Assembly (NCBI GenBank): GCA_021838765.1
Contig: JAKCCY010000037.1
Coordinates: 1-22,190 of the forward strand
Reading direction: 5' to 3'
DNA: 22,190 bases
Source: Nitrospirota bacterium
GTDB lineage: Bacteria > Nitrospirota_A > Leptospirillia > Leptospirillales > Leptospirillaceae
Within the stretch, counting starts at the first letter, position 1. Each line of letters starts with the position of its first letter. The notes under the pieces were generated by a model, which was given only the letters and a program-made list of their open reading frames with translations, was not told the DNA's origin and did not search any database. The position numbers and the translations under genes are program-made. Positions 1-18,880 of the stretch are shown here, in pieces.

Positions 1-144
1 GGAGAGACAATCGGTATTGTCACCTGGCAATACGCCAGGCTGGCTTCGACCTATCCGCATGAAACACTGGCTCCGGAGTACAGGGGAACGGTTCTGTCCC
101 TGGGAATGATCTATACCCACCTGAGGGCTGACCTTGCCCCATAA
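1..144 (+). pseudogene. 3' part of an unrecognised gene, cut by an IS element
   Basis: Frame 1 is open from the first base and reads GETIGIVTWQYARLASTY followed by about 20 further residues; the other two forward frames contain stops. The composition looks like a real protein, but I do not recognise the family. Host sequence probably ends near base 115, where the inverted repeat of the IS begins. The stop at 142-144 lies inside the IS, so the natural C-terminus has been replaced. The 5' end is outside the window. If the IS (116-2543) is removed, the frame happens to continue for about 27 codons on the far side to a TGA. That is suggestive, but no target duplication supports the join. Confidence 0.4.
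116..142 (+). repeat. Left terminal inverted repeat of DruA-IS4 element 1
   Basis: This pairs with 2517-2543. The inner 15 bases match at 13 positions. The outer 12 match less well but share the positions conserved in the second element. Confidence 0.7.
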
Positions 145-187
145 ATAGGGTATGGACACCGGACATTTTTTCGTGTAGTCTGACTGC

Positions 188-2524
188 ATGAAAATTTTCG
201 GACAGACCCTCGACACCTCGATACTCGACACGATCCGGGCCGAGGCAGCCTCCGCCGTCTCCCGGAGCGCCCTGGCGCGGAAGGTCTGCGAGATCCTGGG
301 GTGGAGCGGGGCCAACGGGAAGGCCAAGGAGATGAACGCCCGACTTCTCCTGAACACGCTCGAGAAGAAGGGAGAGGTCGTTCTTCCCCCGTCGAAAGGG
401 CCTGTTCCGGGATGGACGCCTCCGGAGGAGACGGATCCGCTCTGGCAGACGATGGCGGGGCCGTTCGAGGGATCTCTCTCCGATCTGGGCCCCCTCGAAT
501 TTGTGCGGGTCGTGACGAAAGACGAGTCGCGGATATGGAACGCGCTCTTTTCGCGGTATCATTATCTGGGGAAGGGACCGCTGTGCGGGGCCCAGATCCG
601 GTATCTGACGAAGAGTCCGACGCTTGGGTATGTGGGCGGGGCGGCCTTCTCGTCGGCCTCCTGGAAGGTGGCGGTCCGGGATCTGTGGATCGGGTGGAAC
701 GAGGAGGGGCGGCAGAAGAACCTCGGGAAGGCGGTCAACAACAGCCGCTTCCTGATCCTGCCGCACCTCCGGGTTCCGCATCTGGCCTCGCATCTTCTGG
801 GACGGCTGCTCCGGCGGCTGCCCGGAGACTGGGAGCGGCTCTACGGAGAGCGGCCGGTTCTGGTCGAGACCTTTGTCGAGCGGGAGCGGTTTGCGGGCAC
901 CTGCTACCGGGCGGCGAACTTCACGGAGATCGGACCGACGGCGGGTCTGGGACGCAAGGGCCGGGGCACGTCGGTCAAGACGGTCTTCGCCTATCCGCTC
1001 GCTCCGGATTTCCGGGAGGCGCTCAGGGGCGGGCCGGCGGAGGAGGTTCCGGAACCGGCCCGCGTCTTCTCCGACTGGACGGAGGAGGAGTTCGGCGGGG
1101 TGGACTTGGGAGATGCGCGCCTTGCGGCCCGGTGCCGGATTCTGGCGCAGGACTTCTATGCCCGGCCGCAGGCCTCCCTCCCGCAGGCCTGCGGCGGAGA
1201 CCGGGCCAAGGCGAAGGCGGCGTACCGTTTTTTCGACCATGAAAGGGCGACATTGGAGGTTCTTCTCGAGCCGCACCGGAAGGCGACGATCGAACGGATG
1301 AAGGCATACCCGGTGGTGCTGTGCGCCCAGGACACCACCGAGCTCGACTATTCGGGCCATCCCGACACGGAAGGACTGGGGCCCATCGGGAACCACAAGG
1401 GAGGGGCCCAGGGGCTTCTTCTGCACGACACGGTGGCGTTTACGACCGACGGAACTCCTCTGGGCGTGGTCTGCGCCCAGACATGGGTGCGCCCCAAGAA
1501 TCCACCCGTACCGCCGCCTCCGAAGAAACGGGGGAGAAAGCCCGAGAACGCCCCTCCCGAGCCTGCCCCTGCGGACTCGAAGAGCGAGTCCGAAAAGTGG
1601 CTGACAAGCTTCCGGGAAGTGGCCCGGATCCAGGCCCTTCTTCCCGGAATCCGGCTCGTCAGCGTGGGAGACCGGGAGGCGGACTTCCACGAGCTCTTTG
1701 TCCTGGCCGCCCAGGATCCCAAGGGGCCGGGCCTCCTTGTCCGGGCCGTCAAGGACCGGAAGACGACCGACGCCGCCCCGCTGTGGGAGAGCCTCAAAAG
1801 CCAGTCCGAAGCCGGGACGGTCGAGGTCGAAATTCCCCGGAAGGGAGGACGGCCGGGGAGGACGGCGCGGCTGTCCGTGCGCTACGGAAGCTTCGAGATC
1901 GCGCCTCCGGCACAGGGAAAGTCCAAAGGGGCTCCTCCGGTCCGCCTTCAGGCGGTGGTCGTCACCGAGACGGACGCGCCGGAAGGCATCGTCCCCCTCG
2001 AGTGGAAGCTTCTGACCACCGAGCCCGTCGACTCCCTCGAGAGGGCGGCGGAGGTCGGGGGCTGGTATGCCAGGCGATGGGGCATCGAGGTCTTCCACCG
2101 GACGCTCAAGTCCGGATGCCGCATCGAAGACCGGCAGATGGGCAACGACCATCGACTCGAAGCCTGTCTGGCGATCGACATGGTGGTAGCGTGGAGGCTC
2201 TTCCATCTGATGAAGCTGGGACGGGAGATCCCCGATGCCCCCTGCACGGTTTTCTTCGAAGAGGCGGAGTGGAAGGCCCTGTGCATCTTCCACAGCAAGA
2301 ATCCCGAGCCGCCGGAGACGCCGCCAACGCTTCGGGAGGCGATCCGGATGACGGCCAGGATGGGCGGGTTCCTGGGACGCAAGGGAGACGGGGAGCCCGG
2401 CACCGAAGTGCTCTGGAAGGGGCTTCAAAAGCTGGAGAACATCGCCGAATTTTGGGAAATTCTCGAACGGATGCGACGGGCCGGTCCCACATCTCCGGTG
2501 CCCAAGCGTCGGAGATATGGGTAA
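188..2524 (+). CDS. DruA-like (DUF4338) domain fused to Tn5-like IS4-family transposase
   Basis: This 778-residue protein has two parts. Residues 1-70 look like a helix-turn-helix region (ARKVCEILGW, then KEMNARLLLNTLEKKGEVVL). Residues 95-280 match the DUF4338/DruA pattern as I know it: RYHYLGKGPLCGAQIRYL, FSSASWKVAVRDLWIGW, NNSRFLILPHLRVPHLASH, then LVETFVERERFAGTCYRAAN. From about residue 295 it is an IS4/Tn5-type transposase: the AKAKAAYRFFD region resembles the Tn5 N-terminal DNA-binding domain; the catalytic residues are D382 (QDTTELDYS), D495 (VGDREADFHELF) and E634 in the YREK motif (YARRWGIEVFHRTLK). The triad is complete, so it may be active. DruA is known from the Druantia phage-defence system, where its biochemical role is unclear. 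Here it more likely serves transposition, and defence is only a possibility. The ATG follows the left repeat by 45 bases, and the stop lies in the right repeat region. Confidence 0.9.
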   Translation: MKIFGQTLDTSILDTIRAEAASAVSRSALARKVCEILGWSGANGKAKEMNARLLLNTLEKKGEVVLPPSKGPVPGWTPPEETDPLWQTMAGPFEGSLSDLGPLEFVRVVTKDESRIWNALFSRYHYLGKGPLCGAQIRYLTKSPTLGYVGGAAFSSASWKVAVRDLWIGWNEEGRQKNLGKAVNNSRFLILPHLRVPHLASHLLGRLLRRLPGDWERLYGERPVLVETFVERERFAGTCYRAANFTEIGPTAGLGRKGRGTSVKTVFAYPLAPDFREALRGGPAEEVPEPARVFSDWTEEEFGGVDLGDARLAARCRILAQDFYARPQASLPQACGGDRAKAKAAYRFFDHERATLEVLLEPHRKATIERMKAYPVVLCAQDTTELDYSGHPDTEGLGPIGNHKGGAQGLLLHDTVAFTTDGTPLGVVCAQTWVRPKNPPVPPPPKKRGRKPENAPPEPAPADSKSESEKWLTSFREVARIQALLPGIRLVSVGDREADFHELFVLAAQDPKGPGLLVRAVKDRKTTDAAPLWESLKSQSEAGTVEVEIPRKGGRPGRTARLSVRYGSFEIAPPAQGKSKGAPPVRLQAVVVTETDAPEGIVPLEWKLLTTEPVDSLERAAEVGGWYARRWGIEVFHRTLKSGCRIEDRQMGNDHRLEACLAIDMVVAWRLFHLMKLGREIPDAPCTVFFEEAEWKALCIFHSKNPEPPETPPTLREAIRMTARMGGFLGRKGDGEPGTEVLWKGLQKLENIAEFWEILERMRRAGPTSPVPKRRRYG

Positions 2525-2979
2525 AGGTCAGGTCTTAAGGAGGTCATGTTGTTGTTGATAGCCAACTCTCCTCTGGGCCCTGAATGGCAAGACCACCCGT
2601 TAATAAGGGGACCTGGTCGGATTTCGTGAGTGCCATGCCGGGGGTGATTTTCTTCTTGTCTACAAACTCGAGGAAGGGAATCCAGGGGCGGTCGTTTTTG
2701 TCCGAACCGGAACACATGCCGAACTGTTTGACTGATCCAGTACCACCAATCGATCAAAAGCTCTTTTTCTACCCATAGGGAACCAACGCATGCCTCACCG
2801 AAAACGACTGTATCGTGATCAACCAGTTTACCGTTGTCGAGAATCACCACAATCGGCGTGCCGCTATTATCGTCTTTCTGAACGGCCTTCCTCTGAGCAT
2901 AATCGGGCCCAAGAACCTCTCTGACAAGACCACTGTTCTGGTCGACTTCCGGACATACAAGGAAAAATCCCCGCATCAT
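2425..2979 (-). CDS. Hypothetical protein, C-terminus replaced by the IS
   Basis: The first ATG (2979-2977) overlaps the TGA of the preceding small gene as ATGA, which suggests translational coupling in the glycosylase operon. The host-derived part runs to about 2544 (roughly 145 codons). The last 40 codons read into the IS and stop at 2425. The N-terminal half contains a plausible strand-turn stretch, SGTPIVVILDNGKLVDHD, then a tryptophan-rich DWWYW. The C-terminal half is rich in Arg, Pro and His and less convincing, so the gene may already be degraded or frameshifted. I do not recognise the family. Confidence 0.4.
   Translation of the reverse strand: MMRGFFLVCPEVDQNSGLVREVLGPDYAQRKAVQKDDNSGTPIVVILDNGKLVDHDTVVFGEACVGSLWVEKELLIDWWYWISQTVRHVFRFGQKRPPLDSLPRVCRQEENHPRHGTHEIRPGPLINGWSCHSGPRGELAINNNMTSLRPDLYPYLRRLGTGDVGPARRIRSRISQNSAMFSSF
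2517..2543 (+). repeat. Right terminal inverted repeat of DruA-IS4 element 1
   Basis: The reverse complement begins with the CC..C.T..G pattern shared by all four ends of the two elements and continues as CTGACCTTTACCCAT. The transposase stop codon lies inside it. Confidence 0.7.
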
Positions 2980-11530: not shown

Positions 11531-12598
11531 ATGGCAACGTTTCGCAAACGGTCAGGCGCATGGCAAGCTTCCATCATGCGAACAGGATTTCCTCGAGTGT
11601 CGAGAACATTCGACACGAGATCCGAGTCGGAGCTATGGGCCGCTACCATCGAATCCGAGATGGGGCACAGGAAGTTTGTTCCCACCAGAGAGGCCGAGAG
11701 CACGACTGTGACCGAGGCCCTCGACCGGTACGAACGGGAAATCACCCAGAAAAAGAAGGGGATAAAACAGGAGACGAGCCGTCTGCGGATTCTGAAACGG
11801 TCTATTCTCGGAAAAATGTCGCTGATCGCCGTCCAGGGGAAGGATATCGCCCGATATCGGGACGGCAGGATGAAGGAGGTCTCTCCGGCGACGGTCCGGC
11901 GCGAATTGACGATCCTGTCCCACGTCTTCAAGATCGCCATCAAGGAATGGAGCATCACCGGACTGTCAAATCCCGTCCAGTTGATCAATCTTCCCTCGGG
12001 ACGGGGAAGGGAACGCGACCGGAGGTTGTATTCGGGAGAACTCGACCGCATTCTGCGCGCGTCGGCGTCGTCCTTCCTCTCGTCCATCGCCCGGATCGCG
12101 ATCGAATCGGCCATGCGGCAGGAAGAAATATCGGGACTGGAATGGAACCGGGTGGATCTCAAGAAGAAGACCGTGACCCTTCCCGACACGAAAAATGGCA
12201 AGAAACGGATCGTTCCCCTCTCTCCCGAGGCGATCGGAATCCTGTCGGACCTCCCCCATCGGATCGACGGAAAGGTCTGGGGGATCGCCCCCCATTCGGT
12301 CTCGACCGCCTGGCGGCGAGCCGTAAAGTCCGCCAGGGCGACCTACGAGAAGGAATGCCGGGAGAAGAAGGAGAAGCCCGATCCCGCGTACCTGGTCGAT
12401 CTGACATTTCACGATCTCCGGCACGAGGCGACAAGCCTGTTGTTCGAAATGGGTTTCCATCCCATGGAGGTTGCCTCGATCACGGGACACGAGACGCTCA
12501 AGATGCTGAAACGCTACACGCATCTGAGAGCCGAGGACCTTGCGGAGAGGATGAAGAGGAAATCGAAGCCAGAACCGGAATGCGAAGAACCGGTTTGA
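11531..12598 (+). CDS. Site-specific tyrosine recombinase (island integrase)
   Basis: This 355-residue phage-type integrase would insert or excise an element at the tRNA-Gly site beside it. The N-terminal 60 residues (MATFRKRSGAWQASIMRTGF) look like the arm-binding domain. Residues 60-165 are the core-binding SAM-like domain (TVTEALDRYEREITQKKKGI). The catalytic domain has R196 (SAMRQEEISGLEW), K221 (DTKNGKKRIV), H294 and R297 (FHDLRHEATSLL), H320 (ITGHETLKML) and the nucleophile Y329 (KRYTHLRAEDL). All expected catalytic residues are present, so it looks intact. A GGGGGGAAA ribosome site precedes the ATG. It is a diverged relative of the broken integrase at 10616-11273. No excisionase gene is visible nearby. 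Confidence 0.92.
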   Translation: MATFRKRSGAWQASIMRTGFPRVSRTFDTRSESELWAATIESEMGHRKFVPTREAESTTVTEALDRYEREITQKKKGIKQETSRLRILKRSILGKMSLIAVQGKDIARYRDGRMKEVSPATVRRELTILSHVFKIAIKEWSITGLSNPVQLINLPSGRGRERDRRLYSGELDRILRASASSFLSSIARIAIESAMRQEEISGLEWNRVDLKKKTVTLPDTKNGKKRIVPLSPEAIGILSDLPHRIDGKVWGIAPHSVSTAWRRAVKSARATYEKECREKKEKPDPAYLVDLTFHDLRHEATSLLFEMGFHPMEVASITGHETLKMLKRYTHLRAEDLAERMKRKSKPEPECEEPV

Positions 12599-12665: not shown

Positions 12666-14071
12666 ATCTTTAGAACTGATCTTGCCCCATAAAAAAGGAG
12701 TGAACACGGAGAGAAATTTTCTGTGCTCTCTCCGGCATGAAGATCTGTGGAATGGAGTTTGGGGAAAAGACGATCGGCAAAATCAGGGAGCTGATCGGGA
12801 CGGGACTTTCCCGGACGCGGCTGTCGCAGGAGGTCTGCCGGTTTTTGGGCTGGAGGAATGCGGCAGGAACCCTCAAGGAGATGAGTTGCCGCATCGCCCT
12901 CCGAACCCTGCACGACAAGGGGGAGATCGCCCTTCCGGAGGGCCGGATCGTCGACTTTACGCGGAAGGCTCCGGAAAAGGTGTGCGAAGAACCGCCGGAG
13001 CCGGTGGAGGGATCCCTGTGCGACCTGGGGGACGATCGAACTTCAGCGGGTGGGACCGGGAGACAAGGCCCTCTCCCGGCTCTGGTTCGATCTTATGGCC
13101 CGACACCATTACCTGGGCAAGGGAAGGCTGTGCGGAGCCCAGGTCCGGTATCTGATCCGGAGCTCCGCGAGAGGGGCGGTGGGAGCGGCCTCCTTTTCGA
13201 GCGCCGCCTGGAAGGTGGCCGTCCGGGACGGCTGGATCGGATGGAGTCCCGAACTCCGGGTGCGGAATCTGTCCCGGGTCGTGGCCAACAGCCGGTTCCT
13301 GATTCTTCCGCACGTCCGGGTTCCGCATCTGGCCTCGCACGTTCTGGGCCAGCTCGTGAAGCGGCTGCCCCGGGACTGGGAGGCGACCACCGGGGAGCGG
13401 CCGCTTCTTCTCGAGACCTTCGTGGAGGAGGCCCGGTTCTCCGGCACCTGCTACCGGGCGGCAGGGTGGACGGAGATCGGCCGGACGGCCGGTCTGGGAC
13501 GGCAGGGAAAGGGGGCTCCCGTCAAGAAGGTTCTGGTGTATCCTCTGTCGACGGAGGCCCGGAGTCTCTTGCGCGGCGGAGAGCCGGTCTTCGAGAAGCC
13601 CTGCCCCGTCCTTCCGCCTCCGGCCGACTGGGCGGAAGAGGAGTTCCGGGGCGTCCCTCTTCCGGACCAGCGGCTGGTCGCCCGGCTTCTGACCTTGGCC
13701 CGGGATTTTTTTGCCCGTCCGGCGGCGCAGTTGCCCCAGGCCTGCGGGAGCCGGGCCAAAACCAAGGCGGCCTACCGTTTTTTCGACCAGGAGAAGGTGA
13801 CGATGAAGACGCTTCTGAGCGCCCACACCAAAAAGACCGAAGAACGCCTGGCCGCCCATCCGGTGGTGCTGTGCGTGCAGGATACGACCGATGGGCGGGT
13901 TTTTGGGGAGAAAAGGCGACGGGGAACCCGGGACCGAAACTCTCTGGAAGGGAATCCAGCGGCTCGACGACCTGGCCGCCATGTGGACAATTTTTACCGA
14001 CCTCCAAAATCGTCCCACATCTTCCGTGCTCACAAGACGGAGATACGGGTAAAGATCAGACCGGAGGTGGG
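12664..14071 (+). mobile_element. Internally deleted DruA-IS4 element (copy 2)
   Basis: This element has the same layout as that at 116-2543 but is a diverged relative rather than a recent duplicate. Its inverted repeats have the cores CTGATCTTGCCCCAT (12676-12690) and, as the reverse complement of 14045-14059, CTGATCTTTACCCGT. The outer 12 bases share the positions conserved at all four ends. About 1020 bases are missing relative to copy 1, between the first catalytic Asp (about 13881) and a segment equal to copy 1 from 2360 (ATGGGCGGGTT). It cannot transpose alone, but its ends survive, so a related transposase could in principle move it. I see no target duplication. Confidence 0.85.
12737..14059 (+). 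pseudogene. DruA-transposase fusion gene, frameshifted and deleted
   Basis: The gene starts at ATG 12737 with MKICGMEFGEKTIGKIREL, then RTRLSQEVCRFLGWRNAAGT, the same helix-turn-helix start as copy 1. At the G5 run near 13027-13031 the frame shifts by one: before it reads VEGSLCDLG and after it TIELQRVGPGDKALSRLW. From there the DruA-like domain is complete and open: RHHYLGKGRLCGAQVRYL, FSSAAWKVAVRDGWIGWS, NSRFLILPHVRVPHLASH and LLETFVEEARFSGTCYRAAG. The transposase part begins (AKTKAAYRFFDQEKVTMKT, then VVLCVQDTTD with the first Asp) and is cut by the deletion at about 13890. The joined remainder is out of frame and runs past the right repeat to 14303. D2, the YREK glutamate and most of the catalytic domain are absent. 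A GTG at 13050 could still start a DruA-only polypeptide. Confidence 0.85.
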
Positions 14072-17523: not shown

Positions 17524-18880
17524 GGCTCTTCAGCTAAATCCGTGGGTGCCTGGCGGATCCGGTAAGTTGCCAAGTGTATGGTAAAGAGCGATTTTCAAGG
17601 AATCCGTGGAGCGAAAACCGAACGCTTTTCTCATAGTCAGTTTCGCCTTGAGATTCAGGCCCTCTACGGCTCCGCTGGAAAGGGTGCCTTTGGCCGCAAA
17701 CCAGTTCATGATCAGGGGCTTGTGGTTTTGGAGCATCCTGGCCACTTTTTTCATGGGCTCAAGTTTTGTGCGCATGGTGCGTTTGCACCAGCTGTCCAGG
17801 AACCGTCCCGCGACCGAGGCGTGCTCGAATTCCCAGAACCTCTGGAAGTCTTCCCTCAGGAGATAGGCCTTGACCGACTGGATGTTGAGCTTCAGGAGAT
17901 CCGCAAGACGGGCGGTCTGAGTCTCGGTCAGGTTTTCTGGCCGTTTCAGAAGGGCCCACCGGGCTTTCTCAAGAACGCTCTGTCCAAGGGCCTTGAAGGC
18001 TTTGTGCTCTTCCCGCCGGATCTGGTCGATCGCTTCGCCGAACTTCTTCATGATGTGAAAGCGGTCGAGGATGTTCAGGGCCTCTGGAGCGCACTGCCGG
18101 ATCGCGTCAAGGAAAGGCGCCCACATGTCGGTACAGATGTATTCGAGGCGGGCGCACCGTTCTTGGCTGAACTCCTTGAAGAACGTCAGAAGGGTGTCGG
18201 TTTTCCGGTCGGTCCCGCACCAGAGAAGGCGCCGAACCCCTGCATTCAGCTGGTAGACCAGCGTGAGGTATTTGTGGCCCTTGAAGACGGCAATCTCGTC
18301 GATTCCGATCTGGGTGATGCCCTCCAGAGAGCGGTGCTTCAGGCCGTAGTCCACCATGTAGGAGACGGCCCGATACACACTGTCCCAACTTGTCCGGAAC
18401 ACCCGGGCCGTTTCGCTCCAGGACAGTCTCCGGGCCCAGCGTCCCAGAAAGAGCTTGTAGTCGTTGGTCAGCTGTTCTTTTCCCGATCCCCAGGGGAGAG
18501 CTTCGACATGGATCCCGTGGAGAGGACAGTTCACACGGCGAGGCGCATAGAGGAAGAAGACCTTGAAGTCGAACAGGGGCAGATACTGGAAGGTCCGGGC
18601 CGTCTGGAGGTCATACCCGGGGCCTTTCCTGCCGCATTCCCGACAGACCGGCCTTCCTCCTTTTCTGGGAGTGATCTCGACAATCACAACATCCTCTCCT
18701 TCACGCTTCCCGAAAAAGACATTTCCAAGGACAAAGGACTTGAAACGGACGAGCCGATTCAGTACAGTCTTCACAAGCATTGCTCTTCCTCCAAATGGTT
18801 GATCGTTCTTGCAAAAACAATCATACCAAATGAAAAGGGCAATGCCTTACTTTTTTACCCACAGATTCTGCGGACGAGGC
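17524..18880 (-). mobile_element. Complete ISL3-family insertion sequence
   Basis: The element is 1357 bases. The left inverted repeat at 17524-17547 starts GGCTCTTCAGC, typical of ISL3. The right repeat at 18857-18880, reverse-complemented, matches it at 18 of 24 positions, including GTGGGT. It is flanked by the perfect 8-base direct repeat TGAAAAGG at 17516-17523 and 18881-18888; eight bases is the usual ISL3 duplication. It has one gene, with its stop inside the left repeat as is usual in the family. The insertion splits the PEP-CTERM gene after codon 3. Confidence 0.93.
17530..18780 (-). CDS. ISL3-family transposase
   Basis: This 416-residue DDE transposase has an N-terminal zinc-finger-like region with VCRECGRKGPGYD and CPLHGIHVEALPW. 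It is followed by the ISL3 DDE domain: IGIDEIAVFKGHKYLTLVYQ (first Asp), YICTDMWAPFLDAIRQCAPE (second Asp), ILDRFHIMKKFGEAIDQIRR and TLSSGAVEGLNLKAKLTMRK (the Glu in VEGLN). The C-terminus PPGTHGFS ends within the left inverted repeat, as in relatives. GGAGGA lies seven bases before the ATG. Length and motifs are full, so it looks active. The opposite strand is open for a long way, but that is a shadow. Confidence 0.95.
   Translation of the reverse strand: MLVKTVLNRLVRFKSFVLGNVFFGKREGEDVVIVEITPRKGGRPVCRECGRKGPGYDLQTARTFQYLPLFDFKVFFLYAPRRVNCPLHGIHVEALPWGSGKEQLTNDYKLFLGRWARRLSWSETARVFRTSWDSVYRAVSYMVDYGLKHRSLEGITQIGIDEIAVFKGHKYLTLVYQLNAGVRRLLWCGTDRKTDTLLTFFKEFSQERCARLEYICTDMWAPFLDAIRQCAPEALNILDRFHIMKKFGEAIDQIRREEHKAFKALGQSVLEKARWALLKRPENLTETQTARLADLLKLNIQSVKAYLLREDFQRFWEFEHASVAGRFLDSWCKRTMRTKLEPMKKVARMLQNHKPLIMNWFAAKGTLSSGAVEGLNLKAKLTMRKAFGFRSTDSLKIALYHTLGNLPDPPGTHGFS

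Follow-up and report, generated by a model that had tools for sequence, protein, structure and literature searches.

Phage Mu encodes Mom, a protein whose action on DNA is described in PMC7824862 and PMC6483171; DNA modification of the Mom type is known both in phages and in the genomes of some bacteria (PMC7824862). The DUF4338 domain, also labelled DruA after Druantia phage defence, has already been termed a GNAT (acetyltransferase) domain where it stands at the N-termini of DndF proteins (PMC10853773). Here, we analyzed a stretch of 22,190 nucleotides from a Nitrospirota bacterium of the Leptospirillaceae (assembly GCA_021838765.1, contig JAKCCY010000037.1, positions 1 to 22,190; the whole stretch is hereafter the window). 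It contains an insertion sequence (IS) of IS4/IS50 (Tn5) type that encodes a transposase with an additional unit at its N-terminus. By sequence comparison and structure modelling, we show that this unit has a predicted GNAT fold, kinship with Mom and strict keeping of the Mom-site residues, and that it recurs in several IS families. On balance, we favour the view that the transposase carries a predicted helix-turn-helix (HTH) followed by a Mom-like GNAT domain (DruA/DUF4338) that would be an active enzyme, moving a group derived from coenzyme A (CoA) to DNA; such jumping elements may thus modify DNA themselves.

An extra N-terminal unit on a Tn5-type transposase

The gene of this element (Table 1) starts with ATG and encodes 778 amino acids (aa) without internal stops. 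The original prediction described it as a DruA-like domain physically tied to transposition through fusion to a complete Tn5-type DDE transposase, and both parts of that description were borne out, as one open reading frame (ORF) carries PF14236, PF14706 and PF02281. In a Pfam scan of the protein, Tnp_DNA_bind (PF14706) matched with an E-value of 1.4e-18 and Dimer_Tnp_Tn5 (PF02281) with 1.2e-22, while DDE_Tnp_1 (PF01609) stayed slightly below its cut-off (21.3 vs 23 bits). The NCBIfam model IS4_3 (NF033590) gave E 1.2e-113 and 380 bits against a cut-off of 160. The catalytic residues D382, D495 and E634 are identical in 99/99 aligned fused proteins, a set that we picked out of 120 listed relatives. 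The YREK signature is a mark of the IS4-family DDE triad; at its positions, Y627 is almost invariant, and R630, E634 and K641 are invariant.

The N-terminal unit was likewise recovered, if with some reservations. DruA (PF14236) matched residues 93-256 (E 1.6e-33, 116.6 bits vs a cut-off of 27), yet the domain had been called full, and the match covers only positions 40-222 of the 297-position model. For the predicted HTH start, an AlphaFold model places three helices (residues 10-22, 26-37 and 48-60) with block means of 90-98 in predicted local distance difference test (pLDDT), whereas no HTH profile matched the 778-aa protein at E<=1 in the Pfam scan. Residues 1-68 have a mean pairwise identity of 0.58 among fused relatives, and the Mom-like domain and the DDE core are conserved alike (0.66 vs 0.65 in 96 fused rows).

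A chance fusion is excluded, because 4213 of the 7992 candidates scored in a protein search with the window protein matched at E<=1e-3, and 119 of the 120 relatives listed share PF14236 and PF14706 (116 of these, the query included, carry PF02281 too). Database domain strings (JGI names) already show the fusion. Two loci, L017 and L011, both from the genome of Candidatus Brocadia pituitae, show 9-bp duplications together with terminal inverted repeats (TIRs), the only 2 of 23 loci to pass a strict scan. Genome G409 contains four fused copies with 98.5-99.6% identity to the first, and their duplicated flanks, read by eye, measure either 6 bp in 4/4 or 8 bp in 3/4 (7/8 in the fourth). The fusion is thus part of an old IS group with recent movement in some hosts. 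A tblastn search for relatives of the domain came up empty in the phages collection (E<=1e-5) and yielded two records in plasmids.

Kinship with phage Mu Mom

The predicted structure of the N-terminal domain turned out to be that of a GNAT acyltransferase, with phage Mu Mom (PDB 8bv8) as its best structural match; a nuclease reading is ruled out by this model. Within a viral structure library, the model comes closest to a Faunusvirus protein of 469 aa (E 1.8e-10, TMq 0.58); its matches there also include several proteins of phages that are labelled endonuclease-like. A sequence search of the PDB with our domain profile (A1) returned a single, unrelated match (E 2). GNAT enzymes bear an acetyl-CoA motif, R/Q-x-x-G-x-G/A, in the loop after strand 4; by our reading of residues 191-201, the motif is not found there in the window protein, and Mom is without it at that place too.

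Profile alignment places H48-Y49, R101, S114, S136, D139, Y149 and N153 of Mom on H125-Y126, R187, S201, T228, E231, Y240 and N244 of the window protein, with 15% identity over the aligned Mom and IS-type profiles. The 8bv8 construct, titled S124A, departs from Mu Mom at residue 114 in the 231-aa numbering. H125, R187, S201, E227 and Y240 are invariant in 99/99 fused proteins, 95/95 rows of A1 and 70/70 domains of all contexts; among the fused proteins, the position of E231 is D or E in 97/99, and that of Y126 is Y in 93/99. The Mom family's own columns read H in 13/13, R in 12/13, S in nine and T in four of 13, and Y in 13/13. The window protein itself has no match to Pfam Mom (PF25680) at E<=1; 50 of 95 domain relatives do (best E 4.4e-6), and precomputed PF25680 annotation appears in 2 of the 120 domain-level matches listed and in 1 of the 120 listed relatives of L071.

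These findings bear on the role that the original prediction had proposed, a DNA-binding or target-choice module. Action on DNA is probable, but binding or target choice is the less likely role, because the fold is that of a GNAT acyltransferase and the nearest match is the DNA-modifying Mom. A Mom-like fold kept by the transposase as a non-catalytic module would agree with the fact that Mom acts on DNA and that the unit adjoins a predicted HTH and a Tn5-type DNA-binding domain; moreover, site-less versions exist, since the homologous Druantia-type DruA has V/T/I and G at the R187 and S201 positions. However, invariance of the five residues across 99/99 fused proteins and 70/70 diverse domains is not obviously needed for pure binding, and we regard this explanation as unlikely. 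Less probable still is an acyltransferase whose substrate is not DNA but RNA, a protein of the host or the transposase that carries it: Mom is the only Pfam GNAT family among the 16 families matched by A1 members, and the conserved residues follow Mom.

Under the favoured view of a DNA-modifying enzyme, the Mom-like domain would attach a group derived from CoA to DNA, with the amino group of adenine as the probable target, as with Mom, while the DNA substrate may be held by the transposase or by the HTH. Two benefits seem likeliest. Just as Mom protects Mu, the domain might shield DNA bearing the element against restriction. Alternatively, self-marking might regulate transposition, in the way that host Dam methylation controls transposition of Tn5 and Tn10. 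A Mom-like enzyme built into common transposases would imply that insertion sequences of the ordinary sort may mark DNA chemically. For DUF4338/DruA, whose role has been unclear so far, this suggests an enzymatic function that can be tested at specified residues.

The domain in other insertion sequences and in the window

The domain also occurs fused to, or beside, transposases of other families. ISAs1 fusions are represented by L076 (by its RefSeq name), with PF13808 present in L076, L008, L083 and L084, and an IS701 fusion by L071 (PF13546; NF033540, 285 bits vs a cut-off of 150), 118 of whose 120 listed relatives carry both PF13546 and PF14236. As a neighbour of an IS66 transposase (NF033517, 246 bits vs 180), it was seen in genome G443, where the six copies compared are ~2.4 kb long, 97.9-99.7% identical to the first and bounded by TIRs of ~78 bp. 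Further IS66-type elements include three copies in G409 (99.8-100% identity) and one in G549 that has TIRs of 38 bp and a duplication of 8 bp, GACTCTTT. ISKra4 and IS1634 neighbours are known from one locus each: L197 (248 bits vs 205; TIRs 25/26 bp, without duplication), for which a script label of 'ISLre2' was dropped in favour of the NCBIfam assignment, and L200 (246 bits vs 100).

We looked more closely at 20 matches, mostly free-standing and not a random sample; in 15 of them, the ORF with the domain or one next to it encodes an IS transposase. Four are of the IS4 family (L184, L198, L201, L202) and seven of IS66, namely L132, L189 and L192 by Pfam and L186, L190, L191 and L199 only by a hidden Markov model (HMM) that we built from two sequences, L190 weakly (E 3e-6). 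The others are one each of ISAs1-like (L196), ISKra4 (L197), IS1634 (L200) and IS701-like (L187, at 130 bits below the model's cut-off of 170). No IS transposase was found at L185, whose neighbours were compared with our own HMMs only, at L188 and L195, where some neighbours were scanned, or in the same or an adjacent ORF at L193 and L194. An inverted-repeat scan gave 14-19-bp pairs without 8-bp duplication at L190, L191 and L198, just 8-11-bp pairs at L184, L188, L189, L193, L194 and L195, and no pairs at L187 and L199. A further DruA-domain ORF (L141, 934-2175, - strand) has a DDE_Tnp_1 match (PF01609, E 1.6e-5).

On a domain tree (71 rows tried, 70 kept, with is4_L017 left out), context labels change 18 times, compared with 37.7 in shuffles. 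All 28 IS4 fusions fall with four 'free' rows into one clade (100/96). The IS4-fused label needs five changes, because its clade includes 'free' rows that may be fragments of fused copies; the clustering of labels tells nothing beyond this. Along the starred branches, the IS66 label changes at least twice. A wider proposal, which we hold only tentatively, is that members of at least six IS families (IS4, ISAs1, IS701, IS66, ISKra4 and IS1634) took up a Mom-like DNA-hypermodification enzyme, fused or as a neighbour and mostly behind an HTH, making them self-marking transposons that would modify DNA in their life cycle, with Druantia DruA a remodelled relative.

The window itself holds a second, decayed copy of a related element (Table 1). 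It contains a frame change, and the second frame matches PF14236 (E 5e-31) and PF14706 (E 1.2e-19); as we read the frames, the DDE core is largely missing. A target-site duplication was sought and not found at this copy, nor was one seen at copy 1, whose flanks ACCTGAGGG and GTCTTAAGG are identical at 5/9 positions. Just upstream of copy 2 lies a phage-type integrase gene (11531-12598; PF00589, E 2.3e-22), and an ISL3 transposase gene occupies 17530-18780 on the - strand (416-aa open frame; PF01610, E 2.9e-75). No tRNA and no Rfam match at gathering level was found in the window.

Table 1. Coordinates in the window of the two element copies and of the parts of copy 1
Feature	Position	Strand	Basis or remark
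Insertion-sequence copy 1	128..2531	+	2404 bp; imperfect TIRs
Left TIR CTGACCTTGCCCCATA	128..143	+	14/16 match to right end in reverse complement (CTGACCTTTACCCATA)
Right TIR	2516..2531	+	
778-aa fused protein, stop codon included	188..2524	+	ORF; Pfam and NCBIfam matches
Residues 1-68, predicted HTH-like N-terminus	188..391	+	AlphaFold model helices
Residues 97-270, Mom-like GNAT domain	476..997	+	PF14236 match 93-256
H125 codon	560..562	+	Aligned with Mom H48
R187 codon	746..748	+	Aligned with Mom R101
S201 codon	788..790	+	Aligned with Mom S114 (A in PDB 8bv8, titled S124A)
Y240 codon	905..907	+	Aligned with Mom Y149
Residues 296-353, Tn5-type DNA-binding domain PF14706	1073..1246	+	Pfam
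Residues 344-756, IS4 transposase NF033590	1217..2455	+	
Catalytic codon D382	1331..1333	+	
Catalytic codon D495	1670..1672	+	
Catalytic codon E634	2087..2089	+	
Residues 666-751, Tn5 dimerisation domain PF02281	2183..2440	+	Pfam
Second, decayed copy of related element	12676..14059	+	1384 bp; TIRs CTGATCTTGCCCCATA and CTGATCTTTACCCGTA

Relation to Druantia DruA and to other known systems

The fused domain is indeed related to DruA of Druantia, as the original prediction had it: PF14236 matches both, and hhalign aligns the IS type with the ~400-aa DruA at Prob 94.6-96.8 and E down to 2e-10. The Druantia-type proteins scanned are of two types, one of ~400 aa and a longer one (675-position model), and the latter aligns with the IS type over 61 columns (Prob 85.1). 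Mom showed no profile kinship with either Druantia type (Prob 2.7 and 0.1). In 14 sequences of the ~400-aa type, V/T/I and G stand at the R187 and S201 positions and H at the H125 position in five; Y240 falls on a gap, with a similar S-x-Y-N-R stretch seen by eye only. Compared at this level, it is the IS-type domain that carries the putative Mom-like site.

Could the window domain nonetheless be a Druantia phage-defence gene taken up as cargo? PF14236 is named after Druantia, and sources give a Druantia DruA name to 3 of the 120 domain-level matches listed (P0139, P0157 and P0239); in addition, an IS-type domain stands in a row with a HerA-like ATPase gene at L193 and L194. However, the PADLOC DruA1 model matches the window protein weakly (E 0.0024 over 35 residues), whereas all seven Druantia-type proteins scanned score between E 7.5e-106 and 3.5e-178 on the DruA models of PADLOC; of two further IS-type proteins, L122 gave nothing on DruA1 and P0182 gave E 0.0075. 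As to a druE helicase gene, which would be expected beside a Druantia druA, no listed ORF of the window exceeds 802 aa, with only 187 bases upstream of the fused gene covered, and, as described above, most of the picked matches have an IS transposase fused or adjacent. Cargo is thus very improbable; the PADLOC scores and the diverged residues rule out true Druantia DruA identity, and the window domain forms a separate subfamily.

The row at L193 and L194 could be a defence or DNA-end-processing operon. L193 also has a weak NurA-like match, while the L194 row is known from ORFs of matching size only; both domains carry the substitutions D165 to N, W170 to K and E231 to Q. L086 and L093 encode, in open frames of >1000 aa, fusions of a Druantia-type DruA to an AAA-like part that matches SspF/DndF weakly. 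The Druantia names of P0139, P0157 and P0239, proteins with the IS-type domain, are likely an over-annotation, and P0139, which carries PF14706 as well, is a transposase piece; such names on insertion-sequence pieces can inflate defence-gene counts. PF14236 of any kind was present in 16/299, 23/246 and 16/251 genomes of three phylum samples. In the third, 11/16 were of the full-length kind (L159-L169); L159 and L163, the two of these that were scanned, belong to the Druantia type.

A possible descent of the defence protein from transposons of this kind, as was also proposed, would be compatible with the alignments: the IS type can be aligned with Mom and with Druantia-type DruA, but Mom and Druantia-type DruA cannot be aligned directly. 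The origin of Druantia DruA does become testable, the putative Mom-like site being kept in the IS-type module and not in the Druantia type.

In a literature search, with most subscription papers outside it, we found no paper linking the DUF4338/DruA domain to Mom or placing it in transposases; the sole mention of DUF4338 in the main text of PMC10853773 concerns DndF, not transposases, and the word Mom does not occur there. Compared with the IS50/Tn5 group of the IS4 family, the window protein has ~290 extra N-terminal residues, and its alignment with the Tn5 structures begins only at residue 293 of the model. With Druantia-type DruA (PDLC00001, PDLC00002; PF14236), the domain has a common core, in which R138, R164-D165, G249 and T251 fall on conserved residues of the ~400-aa type, but those proteins (PADLOC models of 407 and 675 positions) are without equivalents of the Mom-like R187 and S201. 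With Mom (PF25680; PDB 8bv8, 'Methylcarbamoylase mom'), it has in common the predicted GNAT fold and the H/Y/R/S/D/Y/N positions; Mom, however, is a separate phage gene, whereas the window domain follows a predicted HTH and is fused to a transposase or, in relatives, may stand beside one.
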